Made by a program: the position numbers and the translations under genes. This document shows positions 8,907 to 61,883 of a stretch of DNA of 64,000 nt, one piece after another. This DNA is from Acidilutibacter cellobiosedens. Lineage in GTDB: Bacteria > Bacillota > Clostridia > Tissierellales > Acidilutibacteraceae. Positions within the stretch are counted from its first letter, which is position 1. Each line of letters begins with the position of its first letter. Under the pieces are notes generated by a model. It had not been told where the DNA came from and searched no databases. It saw nothing but the letters and a program-made list of their open reading frames with translations. Location of the stretch: assembly GCF_004103715.1 (NCBI RefSeq), contig NZ_CP035282.1, forward strand, positions 3,062,501 to 3,126,500. Reading direction: 5' to 3'.

Positions 8907-10088
8907 TTAACTTTTAAAAAACATCAGAAGCAGCCCTGCAGCCACTGCAGAACCAATAACTCCGGCAACATTCGGACCCATTGCATGCATAAGTAAAAAA
9001 TTTCTTGGATTTGCTTCTTGTCCCACTTTCTGAGAAACCCTTGCAGCCATAGGCACTGCCGATACTCCTGCAGAACCAATCAGCGGGTTTACTTTTCCTC
9101 CACTCATTTTATACATTATTTTCCCAAATAACACTCCACCTGCTGTTCCTATGGAAAATGCAATTAGACCAAGCATTATTATCTTAAGTGTTGAAGGAGA
9201 AAGAAACGTTTCTGCATTAGCTGTTGCACCTACCGTTGTTCCTAAAAATATTGTAATTATATTAATTAATTCATTTTGTACTGTCTTAGAAAGTCTGTCT
9301 ACCACACCTGACTCTCTAAGCAAGTTGCCCATCATCAGCATACCAATCAACGATGCTGCTGAGGGAAGGAGTAATGTTACAACTACTGTAACCAATATAG
9401 GAAATATTATCTTTTCTTTTTTAGATACAGGTCTTAACTGCTCCATTACAACTTCACGTTCTTTTTTTGTTGTTAACGCTTTCATAATCGGTGGCTGGAT
9501 AATTGGCACTAATGCCATATACGAATAAGCAGCCACTGCTATAGGGCCTAATAAATGGGGAGCCAATCTGCTTGTTAAGAAAAGTGCCGTAGGCCCGTCT
9601 GCACCTCCTATTATTCCTATACTTGCTGCCTCAGGCCCTGTAAATCCTAAAGTTACAGCTCCCATAAACGTAATAAATATTCCGAGCTGAGCCGCAGCTC
9701 CAAGAAGTATACTGCTCGGAGCTGCGATTAACGGCCCAAAATCTGTCATAGCCCCTATACCGAGAAATATTAAGGGAGGATATATGCCTAACTTAACTCC
9801 TTGATACAAATAATATAAAAGTCCGCCTATTTTCTTTGTTTGGGGAATTAAAGTTCCCGTCGCAGAATCCTTTACTACTTCAATTACCGGTGGATCCATA
9901 AGGCCACTAATGGGAAGATTAGCAAGCAGCATTCCAAAAGCTATTGGTATCAAAAGGAGTGGTTCATATCCTTTTTTTATAGCTAAATAAAGAAGTATAA
10001 ATGAAATAATAAGCATTATTACTTCTTTATATGTAAGAGCTGCAAAGCCTGTACTTTGTAAAAAATCTTTCAATATACTAAATAGCAT
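8907..10088 (-). CDS. mmdB: Methylmalonyl-CoA decarboxylase, Na+-pumping beta subunit
   Basis: A 393-residue polytopic membrane protein of the OadB/GcdB/MmdB family. It decarboxylates carboxybiotin and exports Na+. Recognisable family segments are [39 protein letters not shown], and near the C-terminus [13 protein letters not shown] and [14 protein letters not shown]. It is the last gene of the operon, 24 bases after the biotin carrier. There is no biotin carboxylase in the operon, so the complex should run as a decarboxylase. Substrate assignment to methylmalonyl-CoA is from the neighbouring mutase and epimerase. Confidence 0.94.
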
Positions 10089-10111
10089 TCAATCCACCAC
10101 CTTCTCATATT

Positions 10112-10516
10112 TTATTCTATGCCCACCAATTTATCTTCCGTTTTGACGGTTGCTCCTTTGCTAACATAAATTCCCGTAACTTTTCCGTCTTTGGGAGCCA
10201 CTATTTCATTTTCCATTTTCATTGCCTCTAATATAATTAGTGTCTGACCGGATTTAACAATATCGCCTTCCTTAACATTTATATTTAAAATAGTACCTGG
10301 CATTGGTGCATAAACTACTTCCGTGCCCTTAGCTATCGATATATTTTTCTTATCTTCTTCTGAAGAAACTTCTTTTTCTGTTGGGTTTTGTTTTTGAACC
10401 GAGCTTTCAACTACTTTCTGCTGGATCGGCTGACTTTGATATTGAACTTCATTAGATACCTCTTCTACTTCTACTTCATATTTTTTTCCATTTACGTTTA
10501 TAAGAAATTTTCTCAT
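10112..10516 (-). CDS. mmdC: Biotin carrier (gamma) subunit of the decarboxylase
   Basis: A 134-residue biotinyl protein that shuttles the carboxyl group from the carboxyltransferase to the membrane subunit. The C-terminal half (about 68-134) is a biotinyl domain with the acceptor Lys100 in EAMKMEN and the paired PMPGTI and PKDGKVT hairpins. Residues 25-65 form a Gln/Ser/Glu-rich flexible linker. The ATG follows TAGGAGG. It lies between the delta and beta subunit genes. Confidence 0.95.
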   Translation of the reverse strand: MRKFLINVNGKKYEVEVEEVSNEVQYQSQPIQQKVVESSVQKQNPTEKEVSSEEDKKNISIAKGTEVVYAPMPGTILNINVKEGDIVKSGQTLIILEAMKMENEIVAPKDGKVTGIYVSKGATVKTEDKLVGIE

Positions 10517-10541
10517 TTTTTACCTCCTAAAATTGTTTTAT

Positions 10542-10895
10542 TTATAATCTCTTAAACATTTGCTGTTCTCTTCCTACTCTTGACCATATACATTCATTTG
10601 TGGATATTCTTTTTATACTTTTTATATTCATTTCGGGTATCGATACTCCCAAACTTGCAGCTACTGCTGCAGATATAATTGCTATCAATTCTTCGTTTTC
10701 ATCATCCTTAATATTTTCCATATTGGCCTCCTTAGCTACTAATTTCTGACTTGTTTTCTTCATCTTAGTGCCTTTATTTGTTATAACCTTAGAGCCCTTT
10801 ATTAGGTATGATATTATTAATAAAGATATAAACACAATAGCCATGCTAAATATAGTTATTATTAAGCTATCAGACATTGTTATCTTATCTCCCAC
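10542..10895 (-). CDS. mmdD: OadG/MmdD-like delta subunit of the decarboxylase
   Basis: A 117-residue protein with one N-terminal membrane helix (about residues 8-30), a basic stretch and a C-terminal tail with ISAAVAASLG and ending RRIS..ECIWSRVGREQQMF, as in small OadG-type subunits that anchor the soluble carboxyltransferase to the beta subunit. I use the GTG at 10895, preceded by AGGAAGGTG; an internal ATG seven codons on is also possible. It lies 12 bases after mmdA. Confidence 0.85.
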   Translation of the reverse strand: MGDKITMSDSLIITIFSMAIVFISLLIISYLIKGSKVITNKGTKMKKTSQKLVAKEANMENIKDDENEELIAIISAAVAASLGVSIPEMNIKSIKRISTNECIWSRVGREQQMFKRL

Positions 10896-10907
10896 TATCT
10901 CACCTTC

Positions 10908-12452
10908 CTACAGAGGAATATTTCCATGTTTTTTAGCCGGTCTCTCTTCTCTCTTACTTCGAAGCATATCAAAGGCACTTATAAGTCTTGGTCTGGTAGT
11001 ACTGGGCACTATTACATCGTCTACATACCCTCTTGACGCTGCAATATAAGGATTATTTACAGTGTCTTTATATTCTGCTATTTTTTCCTTCCTGAACTCT
11101 ACAGGATCTTCAGAGCCTTCAATTTCCTTTTTGAATATAATATTTGCTGCACCTTCGGGTCCCATAACTGCTATTTCAGCATTAGGCCATGCAAATACTT
11201 GATCTGCTCCCAAGTCCTTAGAACACATCGCAAGGTAAGCTCCGCCATAGGCCTTTCTTATTATAAGAGTGACCTTAGGTACTGTCGCTTCACTATAAGC
11301 ATAAAGCATTTTGGCTCCATGTCTTATAATCCCTCCATATTCCTGTTCCGTTCCAGGTAAAAATCCCGGTACATCTACGAGATTAAGCAGCGGTATGTTA
11401 AAAGCATCGCATGTCCTAATAAATCTGCCGGCTTTATCAGAAGCATTAACGTCAATACATCCCGCCAAAACTTTAGGCTGGTTTCCAATCACTCCTACGG
11501 TCATCCCGTTGAGTCTTATATATCCTGTAATCATATTCTGAGCATAATAGGGCTGAACTTCAAAAAATTCTCCTTTATCTGCTAATATATTTATTATTTC
11601 CTTCATATCATAGGATTTATTTGGATTTTCAGGTATTATTTCGTTAAGTCTCTCTTCAACCCTATTTATATTATCATCAGCTTCAATAATAGGAGGCTCT
11701 TCAAGATTATTTGATGGAAGATAACTCAGCAATCTTTTTATCCTTTGAATGCAGTCTTCCTCATTTGAATCTATAAAATGAGCAACTCCACTGATTTTAT
11801 TATGAGTCACAGCTCCTCCCAACTCTTCCTGAGATACTTCTTCTCCGGTAACCGATTTTATCACCTGAGGTCCGGTAATAAACATCATTCCCGTATTTTC
11901 AACCATAAATATAAAATCCGTCAGTGCCGGTGAATAAACAGCACCTCCCGCACATGGCCCCACAATTACAGAAATTTGGGGAACTACACCTGAAGCCAAT
12001 GTGTTTCTATAAAAAATATTTCCATATCCCGATAGAGCATCTACTCCTTCCTGTATCCTTGCTCCTCCGGAATCATTAAATCCTACTATAGGTGCACCCA
12101 TTTTAATTGCCATATCTTGAACCTTGCATATTTTTGCTGCGTGCATCTCTCCAAGAGAACCTCCCAGAACTGTAAAATCCTGAGCATATACAAAAATCAG
12201 TCTTCCATCTACAGTGCCGTATCCTGTCACAACTCCGTCTGCCTCTGCTTCAACTTTTTCCATTTCAAAATTAGTACATCTGTGCTTTACAAAAGCATCT
12301 ATTTCAACAAAGCTGCCTTCATCCAATAAAAGATTTATTCTTTCTCTCGCAGTAAATTTACTGGATTTATGCTGTTTTTCAATACGTTTTTCACCTCCTC
12401 CAAGAGATATTTTATTCTTGGATTCGATTAGTTCCTCGATTTTGTTTTTCAT
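10908..12452 (-). CDS. mmdA: Methylmalonyl-CoA decarboxylase carboxyltransferase (alpha) subunit
   Basis: This 514-residue carboxyltransferase transfers the carboxyl group of (S)-methylmalonyl-CoA to biotin. It has the duplicated crotonase-like acyl-CoA carboxylase beta fold: N-half segments QDFTVLGGSLGEMHAAKI, FNDSGGARIQEGV and GPCAGGAVYSPALTDF, C-half segments LVDVPGFLPGTEQE, RKAYGGAYLAMCSK and AWPNAEIAVMGPEGA. Length is typical. It is preceded by the epimerase gene and followed by the other three decarboxylase subunits, so a decarboxylase role fits better than propionyl-CoA carboxylase. Confidence 0.95.
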   Translation of the reverse strand: MKNKIEELIESKNKISLGGGEKRIEKQHKSSKFTARERINLLLDEGSFVEIDAFVKHRCTNFEMEKVEAEADGVVTGYGTVDGRLIFVYAQDFTVLGGSLGEMHAAKICKVQDMAIKMGAPIVGFNDSGGARIQEGVDALSGYGNIFYRNTLASGVVPQISVIVGPCAGGAVYSPALTDFIFMVENTGMMFITGPQVIKSVTGEEVSQEELGGAVTHNKISGVAHFIDSNEEDCIQRIKRLLSYLPSNNLEEPPIIEADDNINRVEERLNEIIPENPNKSYDMKEIINILADKGEFFEVQPYYAQNMITGYIRLNGMTVGVIGNQPKVLAGCIDVNASDKAGRFIRTCDAFNIPLLNLVDVPGFLPGTEQEYGGIIRHGAKMLYAYSEATVPKVTLIIRKAYGGAYLAMCSKDLGADQVFAWPNAEIAVMGPEGAANIIFKKEIEGSEDPVEFRKEKIAEYKDTVNNPYIAASRGYVDDVIVPSTTRPRLISAFDMLRSKREERPAKKHGNIPL

Positions 12453-12480
12453 TTTTACCCTCCTTCTTCTCTACATAATA

Positions 12481-12882
12481 CTAATTTCTTTCACAAAGTT
12501 CTATCAAAACTCCAAAGGTGCTTTTGGGATGCAAAAAAGCAATTTTTGCTCCTCCTGCACCATAACGAGGCTTTTCATCAATCATCCTTATACCTTTCGA
12601 TTTCATCTCTTCAATAGCTTTATCGATATCATCTACTTTATAAGCTATGTGCTGTATTCCCTCGCCTTTCTTTTCGATAAACTTCGATATAGGGCCATTT
12701 TCCTCTGTAGACTCTAAAAGTTCAATCTCTGTATCTCCAATGGGCAAAAAAGCAACTCTCACTTTCTGTTCTTCTATAACTTCATTGCCTTGAGCCTTTA
12801 TACCCAACACATTTTCATAAAACTTTAAAGTCTCATCTAAATCTTTAACCGCTATTCCTATATGATCTACCTTTTTAATCAC
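12481..12882 (-). CDS. mce: Methylmalonyl-CoA epimerase
   Basis: A 133-residue glyoxalase-fold enzyme that interconverts (R)- and (S)-methylmalonyl-CoA, linking the mutase to the decarboxylase. Metal-binding positions are visible: His7 in VDHIGIAV, the His in GIQHIAYKVDD and the Glu in VLIELCE. The start is GTG at 12882 with GGGAGG upstream. It lies 17 bases after meaB and 28 bases before mmdA. Confidence 0.95.
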   Translation of the reverse strand: MIKKVDHIGIAVKDLDETLKFYENVLGIKAQGNEVIEEQKVRVAFLPIGDTEIELLESTEENGPISKFIEKKGEGIQHIAYKVDDIDKAIEEMKSKGIRMIDEKPRYGAGGAKIAFLHPKSTFGVLIELCERN

Positions 12883-12898
12883 TTTATTTCCTCCCTTC

Positions 12899-13843
12899 TT
12901 ATTTAAGTAATTCTATAATCTTATCCCTTCCAGTATAAGGATCTAAATTTCTTAAGACCACTTTCTCCGCCAATTCCTCTAAAATAGAATTATTTTTAAT
13001 TGTCTTCATAACTGAGCTCATTAGCTCATCTTCCACTAACTTTAATATTTCGAGTTTTGCATTTCTAACCCTTATGTCCTTTAATTTATTGGTACTCTCC
13101 AAATATTTTCTATGTTCTATTATCTTGTCAAGAAGAATATCCATGCCTTCGTTCCTGACCCCCGATACTTTTAATACAAATGGCCTATAATCCTTCTTAT
13201 CGTTTAAATCAAGCATCATTTGAATTTCTAACTCAGTTTTATCGGCTCCATCCAGATCCGATTTGTTTATTGCAAAAATATCTGCTATTTCAACGATTCC
13301 CGCCTTAATAGCCTGTATATCATCTCCCATATTAGGAGCCATTACCATAAGCACCGTATCCGCAAGCTTAACTATATCTATTTCAGACTGGCCAACTCCT
13401 ACAGTTTCAATGAATATATAATCTGTCCCAAATATATCAAGTATCTTTACAGCTCCTTGGGTGGCCTTAGATAATCCTCCTAAAGAACCTCTGGTACCCA
13501 TACTTCTGATAAAAACTTCTTTGTCAAGGGCTAAATCATTCATTCGAATTCTATCACCTAAAATTGCTCCTCCTGTAAAGGGACTTGTAGGATCTATTGC
13601 TATTATCCCCACTTTTTTCTTCCTTTTTCTCAATTCTTTTGTAAGCTTATCGGTGACAGTACTCTTACCGCTTCCGGGAGGGCCTGTAATACCTACAATA
13701 TAAGCCCTGCCAGTATATTTATATAACTTTTTAATCATGTCAAAAATTTCTTTGTCCCCATTTTCAACCATAGTTATAGCTCTTGCACAAGCCCTTTTAT
13801 CTCCCATTATTAATTTATCTTCCAAGTCCAACTTATGCACCAC
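12899..13843 (-). CDS. meaB: Methylmalonyl-CoA mutase-associated GTPase MeaB
   Basis: A 314-residue G3E-family P-loop GTPase that protects and reloads the B12 cofactor of methylmalonyl-CoA mutase. The Walker A motif GPPGSGKST is at 54-62; the family segments IDPTSPFTGGAILGDR, FIRSMGTRGSLGG, ETVGVGQSE and NKSD (base recognition) are all present. The start is GTG at 13843, immediately after the stop of the cobalamin-binding subunit with AGAGGAA upstream, which points to translational coupling. Confidence 0.96.
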   Translation of the reverse strand: MVHKLDLEDKLIMGDKRACARAITMVENGDKEIFDMIKKLYKYTGRAYIVGITGPPGSGKSTVTDKLTKELRKRKKKVGIIAIDPTSPFTGGAILGDRIRMNDLALDKEVFIRSMGTRGSLGGLSKATQGAVKILDIFGTDYIFIETVGVGQSEIDIVKLADTVLMVMAPNMGDDIQAIKAGIVEIADIFAINKSDLDGADKTELEIQMMLDLNDKKDYRPFVLKVSGVRNEGMDILLDKIIEHRKYLESTNKLKDIRVRNAKLEILKLVEDELMSSVMKTIKNNSILEELAEKVVLRNLDPYTGRDKIIELLK

Positions 13844-14245
13844 CTATTTATTCCTCTTTATATGAGTCCTAATATATTCTACTACATCTTTTGTGGAGGT
13901 TCCCGGAGTAAATATCTCCTCTATTCCTTTTTCCTTAAGTCCCGGAATGTCATCTTCGGGAATTACCCCTCCTCCCATTATAAGAACATCTGTCACTCCT
14001 TCTTCTTTTAGAAGATTAACTACCTTGGGAAATAAATAATTATGTGCTCCTGAAAGAATACTCATTGCCACAACATCTACATCTTCCTGTATTGCTGTAG
14101 CAACAATCTGTTCGGGGGTTTGTCTTAAGCCCGTATATATTACTTCCATTCCTGCATCTCTCAAAGCTCTTGCAATAACCTTTGCTCCTCTATCATGCCC
14201 ATCAAGTCCAGGCTTTGCTACCAAAACCCTTATTGGTCTATTCAT
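13844..14245 (-). CDS. mcmA2: Methylmalonyl-CoA mutase, cobalamin-binding subunit
   Basis: A 133-residue B12-binding domain encoded as a separate chain. The signature DGHDRG (His17 is the lower axial cobalt ligand) is followed by the conserved SILSGAH and MGGGVIP segments. It pairs with the large chain 14 bases upstream to form the adenosylcobalamin-dependent mutase that converts succinyl-CoA to (R)-methylmalonyl-CoA. The ATG has GGAGGAAACAG upstream. This split architecture is known from archaea and several anaerobes. Confidence 0.95.
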
Positions 14246-14259
14246 TCTGTTTCCTCCTT

Positions 14260-15939
14260 TTATAATATAACACTTTGCTGATATTCTCCAAATACTTCCC
14301 TCAATACATTACATATTTCTCCAAGAGTCGCATAAGCTTTAACCGCATCCAATATACAAGGCATTAAGTTTTCCTTGCCCTTTGCTTCATCTTTTAATCT
14401 CTTCAATACCCTTTCGACTTCTTCATTATTCCTTGAATTTTTTAATTCCTGTAATTTCTTCTTCTGCAATTTTTCTACCTCAGGATCGACTCTCAATATA
14501 TCTTTATGATGTTTTTCTTCGATTTGGAATTTATTTACTCCCACAACTACTCTTGTATTAGCCTCTATTTCCATTTGATATTTATACGCACTATTCTGAA
14601 TTTCTTTCTGAATAAATCCCTTGGAAATAGCTTTCGGTGCTCCTCCCAGCTCATCAATTTTTCGTATATACTTCATTGCTTCTTCTTCTATTTTATCGGT
14701 TAAGTTTTCAATATAATAGGACCCCGCCAATGGGTCAACAGTCTCCGTAACTCCGCTTTCATAGGCTACAATTTGTTGAGTCCTTAATGCAATTCTTACA
14801 GACTCTTCAGTAGGAAGAGCTAAAGCTTCGTCCCTCGAGTTGGTATGAAGAGATTGAGTCCCTCCAAGAACTGCAGCAAGGGTCTGAATAGTAACTCTGA
14901 TTATATTATTATCCGGTTGCTGAGCCGTCAATGTAGAACCTGCCGTCTGAGTATGAAATTTCAACATCATGGATTTTTCTTTTTTAGCTTTAAATCTTTC
15001 TTTCATTATTCTTGCCCACAATCTTCTTGCCGCTCTGTATTTAGCAACTTCTTCTAAAAAATCATTATGAGCATTAAAGAAAAATGAAAGTCTAGGCGCA
15101 AATTCATCTACATCCAAACCAGCTTTTATTGCCGCCTCAACATATGCTATTCCGTCAGCTAAAGTAAAAGCAACTTCCTGAATTGCCGTAGCCCCTGCTT
15201 CTCTTATATGGTATCCGCTGATACTTATGGTATTCCATTTAGGGACATTTTTTGAACAATATTCAAATATATCCGTTATAAGCCTCATGGACGGTTCCGG
15301 TGGAAATATGTAAGTTCCCCTTGCAATATACTCTTTTAAAATATCATTTTGAATTGTTCCTCTTAATTTACTCTTGGGTACTCCCTGTTTTTCCGCTACT
15401 GCTATATACATCGCAAGCAAAATACTGGCCGGAGCATTTATAGTCATAGATGTGCTTACCTTATCCAACGGAATCCCTTCAAACAGTATTTCCATGTCTT
15501 TCAACGAATCAATAGCAACTCCTACTTTTCCTACCTCTCCTTCACTTAAAGGTGCATCTGAATCATATCCAATTTGAGTAGGAAGATCAAAGGCTACACT
15601 TAAGCCCGTTTGTCCTTGTTCAAGCAAATATTTATATCTCTTATTAGACTCTTCGGCAGTTGCAAATCCTGCATACTGTCTCATAGTCCAAAGTTTTCCT
15701 CTATACATCGTAGGCTGAACTCCTCTTGTAAAAGGATATTGTCCCGGGTATCCCAAATCCCCTTCATAATCTAAATTTTCATTATCCTCAGGAGTATATA
15801 ACCTATTAACTTCAATATTTGAACCTGTACTAAATTCTTCTTTTCTTTCCGGAAATTTTGATAAAGTTTTCATAACCTTATCTTCTTCCCACTTTTTCTT
15901 TGAATCTTTAACGTTTTCAATGGTGTCCTTGTCAAACAT
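14260..15939 (-). CDS. mcmA1: Methylmalonyl-CoA mutase, large catalytic subunit
   Basis: About 559 residues forming the substrate-binding TIM barrel of methylmalonyl-CoA mutase. Family segments include [54 protein letters not shown], and [18 protein letters not shown]. No B12-binding domain is attached; that is the next gene. I start at ATG 15939, eight bases after GAGGAGG; the TTG two codons upstream is too close to it. It is the first gene of the eight-gene mutase-decarboxylase operon. Confidence 0.97.
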
Positions 15940-15990
15940 TATCAAATCCTCCTCATATTAAACAAACAGGTTTTTTAGTATCTTTATTAT

Positions 15991-55249: not shown

Positions 55250-56560
55250 ATGGAAAGCAAAACTACAAAGGAAAACACAAAAAATAAAGATAACAATCTA
55301 TCTAAAATTAAAATAGGACTTATAACACATTTAGTAATTAACTTACTTATAAGTACCTTAATATCAAATGGATTATACGTCTTATTAGCAGAACATATGA
55401 ATGTTAGTCCTAATTTTATAATGTTAATTTTTTCATTTGTAAACATAATTATTTTCTTATTAATAACCTATTTCTCAATTAGCCGTTGGCTTGTAAAGTT
55501 CTTCAAAGCTATCGAACCGGTTATTGAAGAAATCTCTAGAGGCAACTTAAACGAAATAAGTTTATTCAACGGTAAAAATAAATTCAGTGGAATCACGGAT
55601 TCATTAAGCAAGGCTAATTCAAATATAAAAAATATGATTACAGGAATAACACAGAATTCTGAGGTATTATCTAAAAACGCCAAAGATCTGTCTGATATTG
55701 TCGAAGATACTACTCAGGCAGTGGAACAAATCGCTTCCAGTGTTAACGATATAGCCTCCGGTTCAGAAGATACATCAAAAAATATTACTGAATTAAGCGA
55801 AGCCATATCCAATCTTACTACTCTTTCACAAAATACAGAAAAAAATACTCAATTGGCTACGGACCTTTCAGCTTCCATGGCCAAATCAGCAGAAAAAGGT
55901 AGCAAAGATATGGAAAAGATAATCGATAAGGTAAGTTTAATTGATTCTTCTACCAAAAATACTTCAGGAATAATCGAAAATCTTAATGAACAAATTAAAA
56001 ACATTGAAAATATAGTAGTAATCATAAACCAAATAGCAGAACAAACGAATCTTCTTGCATTAAATGCGGCAATTGAAGCAGCAAGAGCAGGAGAATCAGG
56101 AAAGGGATTTGCTGTAGTGGCAGATGAAATAAGAAAACTTGCCGACGAAACCCATACATATTCAGATGAGATATCCAAAATTACAAATTCCGTTACAGGA
56201 AGCAGTAAAAGTGCTGTAGACAGCATTGAAAAGGTAAGCGGAATAGTTAATGAAAGTGTAGAAGTCGCTGATTTAACTAAAGCTTCTTTTGAAGAATTGG
56301 TGGAAAAATTCGATAAGATCAATCTTTCAATAGTCGAAATTGCGGAAGCTTCTAAAGAGGTAAGAAATAATAGCGAATATATCCTTGAAAGAGCTACGGA
56401 AATATCCGCTATATCAGAAGAAACTACTGCAGCATCTCAAACCAGTTCGGAAGCAATAGATAAAAATCTTGCAGCCATGGAGGAAATCACCTCTTCCATT
56501 GAAAGCTTATCGGAAATTGCAGATAAACTAAATAAAATGGTAGAAAAATTTAATGTATAA
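55250..56560 (+). CDS. Methyl-accepting chemotaxis protein without an external sensor domain
   Basis: A 436-residue chemoreceptor. Two membrane helices (about 25-47 and 58-78) are separated by only about ten residues, so there is no extracytoplasmic ligand domain; a HAMP-like region and a long coiled-coil signalling domain follow. The hairpin tip is [37 protein letters not shown]. It may sense a membrane or cytoplasmic signal. No other chemotaxis gene is in the window. Its last 11 bases overlap the end of the convergent adenosyltransferase gene. Confidence 0.94.
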
Positions 56561-57083
56561 AATCTACTTTTATTTCTTCTTCTTCAAAATATCTTGCTAT
56601 GGAATAGAGTAAATCAGATAATCTGTTTAAATATTTCACAACATTTGAATCTATTTCAGCATTTTTTTGAAGAGAAATTGTTCTTCTTTCGGCTCTTCTG
56701 GCAACTGTTCTTGATACATGAAAATATGAAGATGCTTGTCCGGCCCCAGGTAATACAAAACCTGTGGGCTTTTTTACCTTTGCCATATACTTATCTATAT
56801 TTTTTTCAAGATAGTCTATATCCTCATCTTTTATTCTATGAGGAACCTTTGTTTGATCTTCTGTGGCAAGATTGGCTGCAACAATAAAAAGTTTATTCTG
56901 AATATGATTTATTAATTCATATGTATCCTTATCGTCTTTTATATAATTTTTAGCAAGACCCAAAAATGATACCAGCTCATCTACAGTGCCATAACTTTCA
57001 ACTCTTATATCATCTTTTGATACTCTCTTATTGTCAAAAAGACTTGTCTGCCCTTTATCCCCGGTTTTCGTGTATATCTTCAC
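56550..57083 (-). CDS. Cob(I)alamin adenosyltransferase, PduO type
   Basis: A 177-residue enzyme that transfers the adenosyl group of ATP to cob(I)alamin, making adenosylcobalamin, the cofactor of the methylmalonyl-CoA mutase encoded at 13.8-15.9 kb. Signatures are [15 protein letters not shown] at the start, [24 protein letters not shown] and [14 protein letters not shown] start at GTG 57083, eight bases after GGAGG, which yields the usual family N-terminus. It follows the methyltransferase gene by 19 bases and converges with the chemoreceptor. Confidence 0.95.
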
Positions 57084-57102
57084 AAATAATTCCTCCTTCA
57101 TT

Positions 57103-58242
57103 TTAATTTCTCTTTTTTGGTCTTGGACCATAAAACTGATAATAATTCACTTTAATTTTTCCATTAAATAATTTTCTTCTCCTATCAGCTCTCCTTCCGT
57201 ATATTTTTTCAAACTCCTCGTTAGATGTAAGAAAATAAAGAGACCATGTATCCAAAAAACTGAAAACTTCACCCATTTTTCTGTATAAATCCTCTACTTT
57301 TTCTTTCTCTCCCATTCTCTCTCCATAGGGAGGATTTGATATGATAACTCCGTATTTTTTCTTGGAGCTTAGTTGCAATGCATCCTTTGTTTCATAGGTA
57401 ATACAGTCGTCCACTCCCATCTCATACGTATTCTCTCTTGCAATTTTAACAGCTTCTTTATCAATATCATACCCAAAAATTTTCAGTTCTCTCTCCTGTA
57501 TAATAGATTTCCTTGCAAAAATCTTTTCTTCTTTCCAATATTCTTCTTTTATTTTTTGCCAATCTTCTGCCGCAAAACTTCTCTGTATTCCCGGAGCGAT
57601 ATTTTTCCCTATCATAGCAGCTTCAATGGGAATAGTGCCGGAACCGCAAAATGGATCAATAAGTATTCTCTCCGGACTCCAATAACTTAGTTGAATCATA
57701 GCCGCAGCAATTGTTTCCTTTACAGGTGCATTGACATGCATTTTTCTGTATCCTCTCATATGAAGGGCTTCCCCTGAAGTATCAATGGATAGAGTTGCCA
57801 CATCTTTTAAAATCGAAACCAATATTGTAAATTTAGCTCCTGTTTCTTTAAACCATTCAGTTTTATATTTTGTTTTTAATTTTTCTACAACTGCTTTTTT
57901 AACTATGGCTTGGCAATCTGAAATGCTGAATAGCTTAGAATCCACGGATTTTCCGTTTACGGTAAACTCCCCGTCTTCATCTATCCATTCTTCCCAAGGA
58001 AGTGCTTTAGTTTTTTCGAACAATTCATCAAAGGTTAAAGCCTTAAATTCCCCCATTTTTAAGAATACCCTATCGGCAGTTCTAAGCCAGATATTTGTCT
58101 TTGCAATATCTTTTTCTTCACCTTTAAATGTTACCTTTCCATTTTCAACTTTTAAATCCGTATATCCTAATTTTAAAAGCTCCCTTTTAACTAATGATTC
58201 CAAACCAAAAGTCGAGGTCGCAATAAGTTCTATTTGTCCCAT
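57103..58242 (-). CDS. THUMP-domain RNA methyltransferase (RlmL/YpsC-like)
   Basis: A 379-residue class I methyltransferase. The N-terminal THUMP region (about 40-150) precedes a RlmL-type catalytic domain with LIDPFCGSGTIPIEAAM for SAM binding and IISNPPYGERM as the N6/N2-type catalytic motif. It resembles YpsC-like enzymes thought to make m2G or related modification in 23S rRNA. I start at ATG 58242, with GGGAGG five bases upstream. The adenosyltransferase gene follows. Confidence 0.93.
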   Translation of the reverse strand: MGQIELIATSTFGLESLVKRELLKLGYTDLKVENGKVTFKGEEKDIAKTNIWLRTADRVFLKMGEFKALTFDELFEKTKALPWEEWIDEDGEFTVNGKSVDSKLFSISDCQAIVKKAVVEKLKTKYKTEWFKETGAKFTILVSILKDVATLSIDTSGEALHMRGYRKMHVNAPVKETIAAAMIQLSYWSPERILIDPFCGSGTIPIEAAMIGKNIAPGIQRSFAAEDWQKIKEEYWKEEKIFARKSIIQERELKIFGYDIDKEAVKIARENTYEMGVDDCITYETKDALQLSSKKKYGVIISNPPYGERMGEKEKVEDLYRKMGEVFSFLDTWSLYFLTSNEEFEKIYGRRADRRRKLFNGKIKVNYYQFYGPRPKKRN

Positions 58243-58854: not shown

Positions 58855-58883
58855 TTGACTAAAAGTTATTTATATTATATATT
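58855..58883 (+). promoter_or_regulatory. Sigma-A promoter upstream of the cobalamin riboswitch
   Basis: TTGACT (58855-58860), 17 bases, TATATT (58878-58883). Transcription would start near 58890, just before the riboswitch P1 stem. Confidence 0.75.
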
Positions 58884-58907
58884 TTAATTGTAGTTAAATT
58901 TAATATT

Positions 58908-59070
58908 TAGGTAAAGGTACAAAGATTTATATTTCTTTGTTTAAAAGGGAAACAAGTAAAAGTCTTGTACGGTCCCGCCACTGTGAAGGTGAGAATTTTA
59001 AAATATGCCACTGAGAAATTGGGAAGGCTTAAAATTCTATGAACCTAAGTCAGGATACCTGCCTTTGCTA
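58908..59070 (+). ncRNA. Cobalamin (B12) riboswitch
   Basis: The B12 box AAGTCAGGATACCTGCC (59046-59062) is preceded by the other conserved blocks of the family: AAAAGGGAAAC, GGTCCCGCCACTGT, TGCCACTG and GGGAAGG. P1 forms between TAGGTAAAGG (58908-58917) and CCTTTGCTA (59062-59070). Binding of adenosylcobalamin or another B12 form normally turns off the downstream gene. It precedes a CoA-transferase, not a B12 synthesis or import gene. Confidence 0.93.
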
Positions 59071-59102
59071 ATGCACTAAAAACTCTACGGTAGATAGGGA
59101 GT

Positions 59103-59188
59103 GTTTCAGAATAGAATTATTATGTAAATACATAATGTTATTTTGCTTGTCACAGTTCCTGAAACCGCCGAGTTCAGGAACTTTTTTA
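59103..59188 (+). promoter_or_regulatory. Riboswitch expression platform: antiterminator and terminator
   Basis: AGTTCCTGAA...TTCAGGAACT followed by TTTTTTATT is an intrinsic terminator (59155-59188). GTTTCAG (59103-59109) is perfectly complementary to CTGAAAC (59159-59165) in the terminator's 5' arm, giving a mutually exclusive antiterminator. An open frame starting at 59143 runs through this hairpin and should not be taken as the true gene start. Confidence 0.85.
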
Positions 59189-59217
59189 TTGCCCAAAATC
59201 ATGAGGAGGTTAAAAGA

Positions 59218-60780
59218 GTGATAGAAGATAGAATAAAAGATATTGAGCTAAGAAAAAAAATAACTACAGCTGAAAACGCTGCACTATTTATTAAAAATGG
59301 TATGACAATTGCTACAAGTGGCTTTACTCCTTCAGGATATCCAAAAGCTACACCATTAGCACTTAGTAAAAGAATTAAAAACAATAACGAAAATATAAAA
59401 ATTACATTAATTACAGGAGCTTCCGTCGGAGATGAATTGGACGGTGAATTAGCCAGAAATAATATTACAAAAAAAAGAATTCCCTATCAAACAAATGATA
59501 GCTGTAGAAAAGCTATAAACAATGGAGACATTCAATTTTGTGATGTTCATTTAAGCCTATTGCCTCAATACATTAATTATAATTATTTGGAAGATATAGA
59601 TATCGGAATCGTAGAAGCATCTGAAATTACCGAAAACGGATGTATGATACCAACTACCTCTGTAGGTATAACACCAACTATAGTAAAAAAAGCTAAAAAA
59701 TTAATAATAGAAATAAATACAAGTCAACCAATAGATCTAAGAGGAATACACGACATATATACTTTACCAAATCCCCCAAAAAGAACGCCTATACCTATAC
59801 TAAACTGCAAAGATAGAATCGGTACAAATTATATCCAAATAGATAAAAATAAGATAATCGCCATAGTTTTCACGGATATAAGAGATGATGTTAAAAAATT
59901 AGCAGAACCAAATAAAGACAGTAATTTAATGGCGGAAATTTTTTTGGAATTTTTAGACCATGAAATCAAAGCAGGCAGAATTCCAAGAAAATTATTGCCC
60001 TTTCAATCCGGGGTTGGTTCAGTATCAAATTCAATACTAAATGGATTCTCTCGTTCAAAGTATGATAAGCTTCAATTTTATTCAGAGGTAATACAGGATT
60101 CAATGTTGGACTTAATAGATATAGGAAAAGTACAAATAGCGTCCGGAACTGCTATTTCCCCTTCTCCGGAAGGATTAAATAAATTTTATGATGATATTAA
60201 AAGATATAAATCGAAGATAATATTAAGACCACAAGAGATTAGCAATAACCCGGAAATAATCCGAAGACTCGGGGTCATAGCAATGAATACGGCAATAGAA
60301 GTAGATATATACGGTAATGTAAATTCCTCTAATATAATGGGTGGAAATCTCATGAATGGGATAGGAGGCTCAGGGGATTTTGCCAGAAATGCCTATCTAT
60401 CAGTATTCTTTACAAAGTCCACAGCTAAAAATGAAACTATTTCCACCGTAGTACCTCTTGTATCTCATGTCGATCACACCGAACATGATGTCAACATAAT
60501 TATTACTGAGCAAGGAATAGCGGATTTGAGAGGTTTAAGTCCAAAGGAAAGAGCTATAAGCATAATAAACAATTGTGCTAATCCTATTTATAAGGATTTA
60601 CTTTCGGATTATTTGAAAGAAGCTATGAAGAGTAAAAAGAACATACCTATATTACTAAATAGGGCTTTTAAATGTTTTGAATCATTAGAAAAAACCGACA
60701 CGATGAAAAGAGGCAACATAGTTTATTATGCAAATTTAATAAATAGAAAGGGTGATGACTATGAAGAAAAAAGCAAATGA
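59218..60780 (+). CDS. Acetyl-CoA hydrolase/CoA-transferase family protein (succinate or propionate CoA-transferase type)
   Basis: A 520-residue class I CoA-transferase of the Cat1/AarC type, moving CoA between acyl donors such as succinyl-, acetyl- or propionyl-CoA. The glutamate that forms the glutamyl-CoA intermediate is in FYSEVIQD; the CoA-binding GIGGSGDFARNAY and the C-terminal TEQGIADLRGLSP are family hallmarks. I start at GTG 59218 behind AGGAGG, because the open frame upstream crosses the riboswitch terminator. Together with the mutase and decarboxylase it could activate succinate with propionyl-CoA. Substrates are inferred. A YitT gene overlaps its 3' end. Confidence 0.92.
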   Translation: MIEDRIKDIELRKKITTAENAALFIKNGMTIATSGFTPSGYPKATPLALSKRIKNNNENIKITLITGASVGDELDGELARNNITKKRIPYQTNDSCRKAINNGDIQFCDVHLSLLPQYINYNYLEDIDIGIVEASEITENGCMIPTTSVGITPTIVKKAKKLIIEINTSQPIDLRGIHDIYTLPNPPKRTPIPILNCKDRIGTNYIQIDKNKIIAIVFTDIRDDVKKLAEPNKDSNLMAEIFLEFLDHEIKAGRIPRKLLPFQSGVGSVSNSILNGFSRSKYDKLQFYSEVIQDSMLDLIDIGKVQIASGTAISPSPEGLNKFYDDIKRYKSKIILRPQEISNNPEIIRRLGVIAMNTAIEVDIYGNVNSSNIMGGNLMNGIGGSGDFARNAYLSVFFTKSTAKNETISTVVPLVSHVDHTEHDVNIIITEQGIADLRGLSPKERAISIINNCANPIYKDLLSDYLKEAMKSKKNIPILLNRAFKCFESLEKTDTMKRGNIVYYANLINRKGDDYEEKSK

Positions 60781-61615
60781 ATATATAAAAATTACCGTTG
60801 GAATGTCACTGGTAGCAATCGGTCTATACTTTTTTTTAATGCCAAAAAATCTATCTGTAGGCGGGGCTAATGGTTTAGCTATTGTTATAAATCATTTTAT
60901 CCCGAATTTATCAATCGGACTTCTTATGATAATTATAAATATTTTTCTATTTGCAATTGGCTTTATCTTTATCGGAACTAATTTCGGTTTTAAAACCATA
61001 TATGCAAGTTTTGGGGTCTCGGTTTTGGTATTATTATTTGAAAAAATTTTTCCCATGAAAAAACCATTAGCAAATGATATACTGATACAGCTTATTTTGG
61101 GTGTTATAATATCTGCAATAGGCATGGGCATAGTATTCAATCAAAATGCCTCAACAGGCGGAACAGATATTATAGCCAAAATATTAAATAGGTTCTGGGG
61201 TATAGATTTAGGTCGGGGTGTGCTCATTTCCGATCTTTCAATAACATTGGCAGCTGGCTTCGCCTATGGACTGCAAATTGGCCTGTATTCGTTATTAGGT
61301 GTGTTGCTAAATGGTTTAGTAATAGATGCAGCCATTGAAAGTATGAATATCCGTAAACAAGTTGTTATAGTAAGCAACTACAGCGAGGTAATAAACGATT
61401 ATATAATAAAAAGTTTAGGGAAGGGTGCCACTTTGTATGAAGCTAAAGGAGGATTCACCGGAAGCGATAAAGAGGTTCTTGTAACTATATTAAGCAGAAA
61501 AGATTTTGTATTATTAAAAAATCTCATAAATAGTATAGATAAAAATGCCTTTATAATAGTTCACAATGTTCATGAAGTAATAGGAGAAGGATTTAAGGAC
61601 ATTGAAAATTTTTAA
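60761..61615 (+). CDS. YitT family membrane protein
   Basis: About 284 residues: five to six membrane helices in the first 200 residues, with GLYFFLMPKNLSVGGANGLAIV and NQNASTGGTDIIAKIL, the YitT signature, and a C-terminal soluble DUF2179 domain (about 200-280, GKGATLYEAKGGFTGSDKEVL). Function is unknown in general. I start at ATG 60761, eight bases after AAAGGG; ATG 60755 and GTG 60752 are also in frame. It overlaps the CoA-transferase by 20 bases, so it is under the same cobalamin riboswitch. Confidence 0.9.
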   Translation: MKKKANEYIKITVGMSLVAIGLYFFLMPKNLSVGGANGLAIVINHFIPNLSIGLLMIIINIFLFAIGFIFIGTNFGFKTIYASFGVSVLVLLFEKIFPMKKPLANDILIQLILGVIISAIGMGIVFNQNASTGGTDIIAKILNRFWGIDLGRGVLISDLSITLAAGFAYGLQIGLYSLLGVLLNGLVIDAAIESMNIRKQVVIVSNYSEVINDYIIKSLGKGATLYEAKGGFTGSDKEVLVTILSRKDFVLLKNLINSIDKNAFIIVHNVHEVIGEGFKDIENF

Positions 61616-61654: not shown

Positions 61655-61883
61655 ATATAAGTTGAACTGTGATGGATAAAGTAGCTCTTTATAATTAAAT
61701 AACAGAAAATAGGTGTCGATGAGAATCCTATAAATTATAAAGATGTGAATTACGCTCCTGAGTTATAATGAGAAATCATTACGGTTACTATCCGTTAAAA
61801 TAGTCAAAGGCATATTTTTATATGCAATTAAGGTGGTACCACGGGTTTTTCTCGTCCTTTACGGATGAGAAAAACCTTTTTTA
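61655..61883 (+). ncRNA. T-box leader of tyrS
   Basis: A tRNA-sensing leader: AATTAAGGTGGTACCACGGG (from 61826) contains the conserved T-box, and it is followed by a terminator with 15-bp arms (61844-61876) and a TTTTTT run. A candidate specifier TAC (Tyr) is at 61751-61753 after GTGAAT. Uncharged tRNA-Tyr should bind the leader and allow read-through into tyrS. Confidence 0.93.

Follow-up and report, generated by a model that had tools for sequence, protein, structure and literature searches.

Why should a cobalamin riboswitch, of a class that normally silences genes when B12 is plentiful, stand before the gene for a CoA-transferase, when the pathway that this enzyme would feed runs through methylmalonyl-CoA mutase and so itself needs B12? 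We examined this question for a locus of Acidilutibacter cellobiosedens, within a stretch of 64,000 nucleotides (the window, to which coordinates refer unless otherwise stated), and for related loci of other anaerobes. With a probability of roughly 0.6, the arrangement is an OFF-switched bypass for succinyl-CoA, and perhaps for propionyl-CoA, that comes into play when the mutase lacks B12; a B12 switch that represses is understandable if the cell needs the enzyme at times when the mutase is without its cofactor. The window contains the following features:

8907-15945, - strand: cluster for methylmalonyl-CoA mutase, MeaB, epimerase and Na+-pumping decarboxylase (NCBIfam), without a riboswitch
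56550-57131, - strand: PduO-type cobalamin adenosyltransferase (TIGR00636, 189.2 bits)
58855-58883, + strand: promoter-like pair TTGACT-17-TATATT (10/12 consensus matches), immediately 5' of the aptamer
58898-59080, + strand: cobalamin riboswitch aptamer (RF00174; cmscan, 112.2 bits, E 2.7e-27)
59083-59102, + strand: predicted P13/L13 hairpin of the expression platform (from folding the aptamer with its leader, and from the terminator conformer)
59081-59174, + strand: predicted antiterminator, strand 59081-59101 pairing with 59156-59174 (minimum-energy fold)
59154-59190, + strand: predicted intrinsic terminator, hairpin 59154-59182 (-11.9 kcal/mol) and U-tract
59203-59209, + strand: ribosome binding site GAGGAGG, read directly from the sequence
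59218-60780, + strand: succinate CoA-transferase, YgfH/ScpC type, GTG start (TIGR03458, NF053853, PF02550, PF13336)
60761-61615, + strand: YitT family membrane protein with DUF2179 (PF02588, 183.7 bits; PF10035, 72.4 bits)

The aptamer was the sole RF00174 match within the window and exceeded the gathering score (31.5) over the full length of the model (positions 1-189 of 189); the riboswitch itself is unremarkable within its family. The terminator stem, AGTTCCTGAA...TTCAGGAACT, is followed directly by TTTTTATT, and an equally stable hairpin arose in none of 60 single-base shuffles of 59064-59192, which bears out an earlier, sequence-only reading that had seen here a clear B12 riboswitch with a terminator. 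A simple terminator scan with a loop limit of 8 omits this hairpin, as its loop is of 9 nucleotides. Promoter-like matches are frequent in the region (19 found versus 15.8 expected), so the pair upstream of the aptamer is weak evidence for a promoter.

Folded together, the aptamer and leader gave P13 (named, like L13, after the published architecture; PMC9600662) plus the terminator. Folded alone, 59080-59192 (-28.1 kcal/mol) paired the P13/L13 strand (59081-59101) with 59156-59174, which is part of the 5' arm and loop of the terminator, and the predicted antiterminator is thus built from the P13 strand. The free fold of 59064-59182 and its terminator conformer came to -30.3 and -28.6 kcal/mol respectively; the window leader has two competing folds of nearly equal energy and, because P13 and the antiterminator both need strand 59081-59101, they are mutually exclusive. 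The 7-base antiterminator proposed earlier does have its complement (59103-59109 with 59159-59165) but is weaker than the longer pairing made by the P13/L13 strand; when forced in 59080-59175 it gave -15.8 kcal/mol, against -28.1 kcal/mol when that stretch was left to fold freely. As ligand binding is signalled through the L5-L13 kissing loop in riboswitches of this class (PMC9600662), and as P13 and the antiterminator compete for one strand, cobamide should favour termination at this leader, an expectation from its anatomy in which the L5-L13 pairing is assumed from the published architecture. On these predicted folds the window leader is an OFF switch in its anatomy, and we found nothing in it pointing to an ON switch.

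The gene under this leader begins with a GTG at 59218, downstream of GAGGAGG, and encodes 520 residues. The protein scored above the cut-offs of TIGR03458 (716.5 bits; cut-off 658.7) and of the ScpC model NF053853 (661.3 bits; cut-off 500), and below that of the butyryl-CoA:acetate enzyme (NF053666, 607.2 of 740); its closest solved structures, aligned over most of its length, were 2g39 and the AarC entries. Its earlier description as a Cat1/AarC-type enzyme was therefore right at the level of the family (YgfH/ScpC), as was the remark that the target is no gene for a B12-independent isozyme, since by its family matches it is a CoA-transferase and not a mutase. From the family scores we predict a succinyl-CoA:acetate (or propionate) activity, and such an enzyme can presumably act only as a bypass, not as an isozyme of a B12 enzyme. 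The open reading frame of YitT starts at 60752 (or at the ATG at 60761), before the transferase gene has ended.

The mutase, described earlier as part of a neighbouring pathway, does lie inside the window, but at 14260-15945 on the opposite (-) strand, some 43 kb from the transferase gene; PF01642 is single-copy in this genome. The genome (G000) is one contig of 3.74 Mb with eight RF00174 sites, from which the chance of a riboswitch standing in the right orientation within 200 nucleotides upstream of a chosen gene is, by simple arithmetic, about 2e-4. Most of the other riboswitches precede genes of B12 synthesis or uptake or genes for large surface proteins, as judged by eye from the translated neighbours; four of these surface proteins carry DUF4430, and no Pfam match was obtained for the gene after the weakest RF00174 site. 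PF02550 occurs in two proteins of the genome, the riboswitch-led transferase and a more distant one at C1:2512347-2513603.

This second CoA-transferase of the same fold is itself the last of a same-strand gene series headed by another cobalamin riboswitch (L012 1318-11033; G000:C1:2512317-2522032); two DUF4430 surface proteins and then two Gate-domain proteins come before it, and it lies about 8 kb downstream of the riboswitch. A crude scan of the stretch between gave only one weak terminator-like match on that strand (2955-2941). Elsewhere in the genome two cobalamin riboswitches lie 1.2 kb from each other (L011; G000:C1:3434000-3447577), and a DUF4430 protein follows each of them; one of these proteins has 2375 residues and SLH domains. 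The window also holds a T-box leader (61660-61862, 101 bits) directly 5' of a 426-residue open reading frame that by eye is tyrosyl-tRNA synthetase-like.

A search for other B12 riboswitches before this enzyme family, as the sequence-only reading had proposed, found the pairing in several unrelated anaerobes. Within the order of the window genome, the enzyme was present in 41 of 249 genomes (E 1e-150 or better), and four of these 41 (G000, G049, G007 and G374) had a cobalamin riboswitch upstream of it; coverage was of whole genomes for 31 relatives, G000 and G374, and of fetched flanks for the other eight, with riboswitch and enzyme positions compared by eye in the 31 relatives. Among the Synergistales, 25 of 149 genomes harboured the enzyme (E 1e-120 or better), ten of them with an upstream riboswitch. 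These ten comprise nine distinct sequences, some of them near copies, as kin were kept in the counts (G100 and G151 are identical, G159 and G132 are 97-99% identical to them, and G115 and G124 are nearly so); and the absence of a riboswitch from some other Synergistales carries little weight because their contigs end soon upstream (about 0.5 kb in G173, 1.1 kb in G113). Two of 80 named loci had the pairing, namely L063, a further Bacillota contig with two cobalamin riboswitches in tandem upstream of the transferase, and L091 from Pyramidobacter (Synergistota); L073 and L161 contain riboswitches that are not upstream of the enzyme. The class of L063 (probably the Negativicutes, to judge from the membership of Veillonella caviae) has the enzyme in 305 of 380 genomes, and one of the 30 loci checked, the L063 contig itself, had the riboswitch.

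On a tree of 97 of the 168 distinct transferase proteins, built with FastTree only and with G112 scored as lacking a riboswitch, the riboswitch label required about six changes (fewest 6; 5 in the group table), at least four of which were forced by well-supported branches. That the riboswitch is a chance neighbour of the enzyme was rejected, as the pairing recurs in separate parts of the tree.

The related leaders mostly carry terminators. A hairpin with a T-tract was found in G049, G007, L091, L166, L167, L168 and L182, and in L174, L169 and the two L063 leaders the tail was weak or the terminator less clear. Of the 14 leaders folded, four (those of the window, L174 and L169, and the first of L063) had a free fold other than the terminator conformer; competition with an antiterminator is thus seen by energy in these four only, because the other ten already fold freely as the terminator. 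Those ten include two other riboswitches of the window genome, and its btuF-like control is among them.

Gene partners vary around the constant element. The order riboswitch, AspT-family transporter, transferase and YitT was found in G049 and G007, and riboswitch, AspT-family transporter and transferase in G122; G112 has a riboswitch, an interrupted AspT-family gene and the transferase. The AspT assignment was by PF06826 in G049 and G122 and by phmmer in G007 and G112. In G112 (L237 1778-4505) the AspT-family gene is split by an opposite-strand open frame of 410 residues. The family of PF06826 includes a succinate exporter (PMC9527358), and at these four loci the AspT/SucE-type gene lies under the riboswitch and immediately before the transferase; the window locus differs in that no transporter gene adjoins it, and a dicarboxylate substrate for the transporters is presumed. 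AspT genes also precede transferases that have no riboswitch, including those of mutase operons, for example in Propionigenium maris. Because of this, and because the transferase reaction is reversible, the transporter may import its substrate; uptake is as likely a role as export at mutase operons of the P. maris type. The L063 contig has, after the transferase and all on the same strand, DMT_YdcZ, cobO and metE. No AspT or YitT match lay beside the enzyme in G374 or in the directly controlled Synergistales copies.

The transferase of G374 is flanked by two further cobalamin-riboswitch-like sites, both on the opposite strand (L181 and L174). One scores 67 bits and leads to a 613-residue protein without a Pfam match; the other scores 27 bits, which is below the cut-off, and is located shortly after a CobO-type gene, facing the transferase gene, which converges on it, with no gene of its own that we could see. 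A riboswitch-less close relative of the enzyme in G056 (L132) sits with genes for a YfcC-type transporter, an ArgE/DapE-type deacylase and ornithine racemase, neighbours that speak for amino-acid catabolism and not for propionate metabolism; the riboswitch-less L131, L133, L134 and L135 have similar neighbours by eye, families having been scanned for L132 only.

A contrast between copies with and without a riboswitch concerns the mutase gene. Among 168 distinct transferases (eleven duplicate rows dropped; many flanks of 1.5 kb), a mutase gene was next, within 1 kb, for none of the 14 riboswitch-bearing copies versus 63 of the 154 others (p 0.001), and in the order of the window genome for 0/4 versus 24/34 (p 0.014), both by Fisher tests that ignore kinship. 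The YgfH/ScpC enzymes in the mutase operons of propionate producers thus belong to the same family (TIGR03458/NF053853) as the window enzyme but differ in that an upstream riboswitch was detected in none of the 63 distinct copies followed by a mutase gene. The mutase itself was present in 61 of 65 genomes checked and also in G000; its presence does not discriminate, because 48 of the 52 genomes without the riboswitch have it as well as all 13 with it.

The main rival, although we consider it unlikely, is a cobamide regulon over the propionate branch, in which low B12 would raise several pathway proteins so as to offset poor loading of the mutase, with no separate bypass. It finds support in Veillonella, where a mutase transcript is reported to have a B12 riboswitch (PMC7160235) and the cobalamin riboswitch leader of V. 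parvula mutA is one of the leaders by which a reporter was repressed (PMC9600662). Because a repressing riboswitch thus stands on the mutase itself, repression by B12 is no proof of a B12-independent role. In both settings a cobalamin riboswitch stands on the succinate-propionate branch; in Veillonella, though, the B12-dependent mutase is the target, and in the window a riboswitch is present before the transferase but absent from the mutase cluster, which counts against a regulon here. Pyramidobacter (L091) is closer to a regulon, as its riboswitch stands between the transferase and a mutase gene that lies some 1.3 kb further upstream on that strand; yet no riboswitch-bearing copy has the mutase gene next, and an extra CoA-transferase would presumably be unable to relieve a mutase that has no cofactor.

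On a Veillonella caviae contig (L220), likewise, what looks by eye like the gene for the mutase small subunit is preceded by a cobalamin riboswitch, and the transferase-mutase operon of the same genome (L061) has no riboswitch nearby.

Clostridium difficile converts succinate to butyrate, and an AspT gene precedes the present enzyme in that species (L065). A different B12-independent sink, in which succinate, taken up or recycled, would pass through succinyl-CoA and 4-hydroxybutyrate to butyrate when propionate formation is blocked, could be imagined for the window genome, and we regard it as improbable. The genome does have one PF03241 protein (a 488-codon open frame), in a cluster that by eye resembles 2-oxoacid oxidoreductase and butyrate genes, and in Tannerella a 4-hydroxybutyryl-CoA dehydratase gene is reported to have a cobalamin riboswitch upstream (PMC7160235); but no succinyl-CoA reductase or 4-hydroxybutyrate dehydrogenase was evident by eye beside the dehydratase (PF03241) of the window genome, and none of the eight riboswitches of the genome is near the PF03241 cluster.

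The sequence-only reading had the riboswitch controlling both the transferase and YitT. The YitT gene does follow the transferase gene in the window, and also in G049 and G007, which belong to another family of the order, and the kept pair might suggest that YitT, as a cobamide- or metal-related membrane protein, is the real target and the transferase a passenger. We consider this most improbable: in L063, in G374 and in the Synergistales loci with a riboswitch (flanks mostly 1.5 kb) no YitT match lay beside the transferase, so YitT is not a constant partner, its standing as main target is unsupported and the transferase is the shared element. An ON switch, by which B12 would turn the transferase on to suit the needs of the B12-dependent propionate branch, would dissolve the apparent paradox and has a distant precedent in a positive cobalamin-riboswitch effect mentioned for Listeria, via antisense RNA (PMC11575231), but we reject it as highly implausible, and with it the earlier suggestion of a switch working the other way, on leader folds in which ligand binding would favour the terminator and given that 38 of 86 cobalamin-riboswitch reporters were repressed, 37 of those 38 having a predicted terminator (PMC9600662).

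The OFF-switched bypass would work as follows. The leader would be a classical transcription-terminating riboswitch for, we infer, an adenosyl-type cobamide. In the bound state the aptamer would hold L13/P13 through the L5-L13 kissing loop, leaving the P13 strand unable to serve as antiterminator; the terminator would form and the CoA-transferase-YitT transcript would stop. When cobamide is scarce the P13 strand would pair with the 5' arm of the terminator and the operon would be read, so that the CoA-transferase, with YitT presumably in some accompanying role, would be made when methylmalonyl-CoA mutase is without its cofactor. The enzyme would move CoA between succinyl-CoA (or propionyl-CoA) and acetate; carbon blocked at the mutase would leave as the free acid, probably succinate, and the thioester would be kept as acetyl-CoA. 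The AspT/SucE-family transporter encoded between switch and enzyme in some relatives would move the dicarboxylate. Such an outcome has a parallel in Xylanibacter, which in the absence of B12 accumulates succinate instead of propionate (PMC11575231).

Between the two possibilities left by the sequence-only reading, an alternative route for times of scarce B12 is thus the one that we favour: the OFF anatomy, the terminators in most related leaders, the metE gene downstream in one relative and the absence of a mutase gene after any riboswitch-bearing copy all point that way, with the response to ligand and the direction of flux as its conditional parts. The pairing in unrelated anaerobes suggests backup handling of succinyl-CoA when the B12-dependent propionate pathway stalls.

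Among the nearest known systems are the cobalamin riboswitches on metE, with which the window leader shares the RF00174 aptamer, a terminator-type OFF platform and a target gene that would be useful when a B12 enzyme is idle; metE itself is downstream of the transferase in L063. Genes for other B12-independent isozymes besides metE are also under cobalamin riboswitches. The window target differs from all of these: it encodes no isozyme of a B12 enzyme but a CoA-transferase, placed where the pathway branches around methylmalonyl-CoA mutase. The classes into which one survey divides the genes of cobalamin regulons are B12 synthesis, transport of B12 or its precursors, cobalt transport and isozymes of B12 enzymes, and its main text contains no words beginning with 'transferase' or 'propionate' (PMC3766115). 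A cobalamin riboswitch has been noted upstream of an unspecified transferase gene in Corynebacterium (PMC7160235). In the portions of the literature searched, which lay mostly outside subscription journals, we found no report of a cobalamin riboswitch before a succinate CoA-transferase; it is this target class and its repeated gain, rather than the riboswitch, that we did not find in print there. None of the four predicted cobalamin riboswitches of Xylanibacter is reported near succinate pathway genes (PMC11575231), so the anaerobes with a transferase riboswitch offer a testable contrast.

We tentatively extend this to the wider family, at somewhat less than even odds: cobalamin riboswitches may several independent times have become a branch-point switch, which would turn on a succinyl-CoA outlet (the CoA-transferase, joined in certain lineages by a dicarboxylate transporter of its own) whenever the B12-dependent mutase is disabled, so that these anaerobes would change over from propionate to succinate as end product through gene regulation as well as through lost enzyme activity. 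With CoA-transferases as a recurring target, the cobalamin regulon would gain a further class, one in which B12 status sets the fermentation product via an RNA switch.
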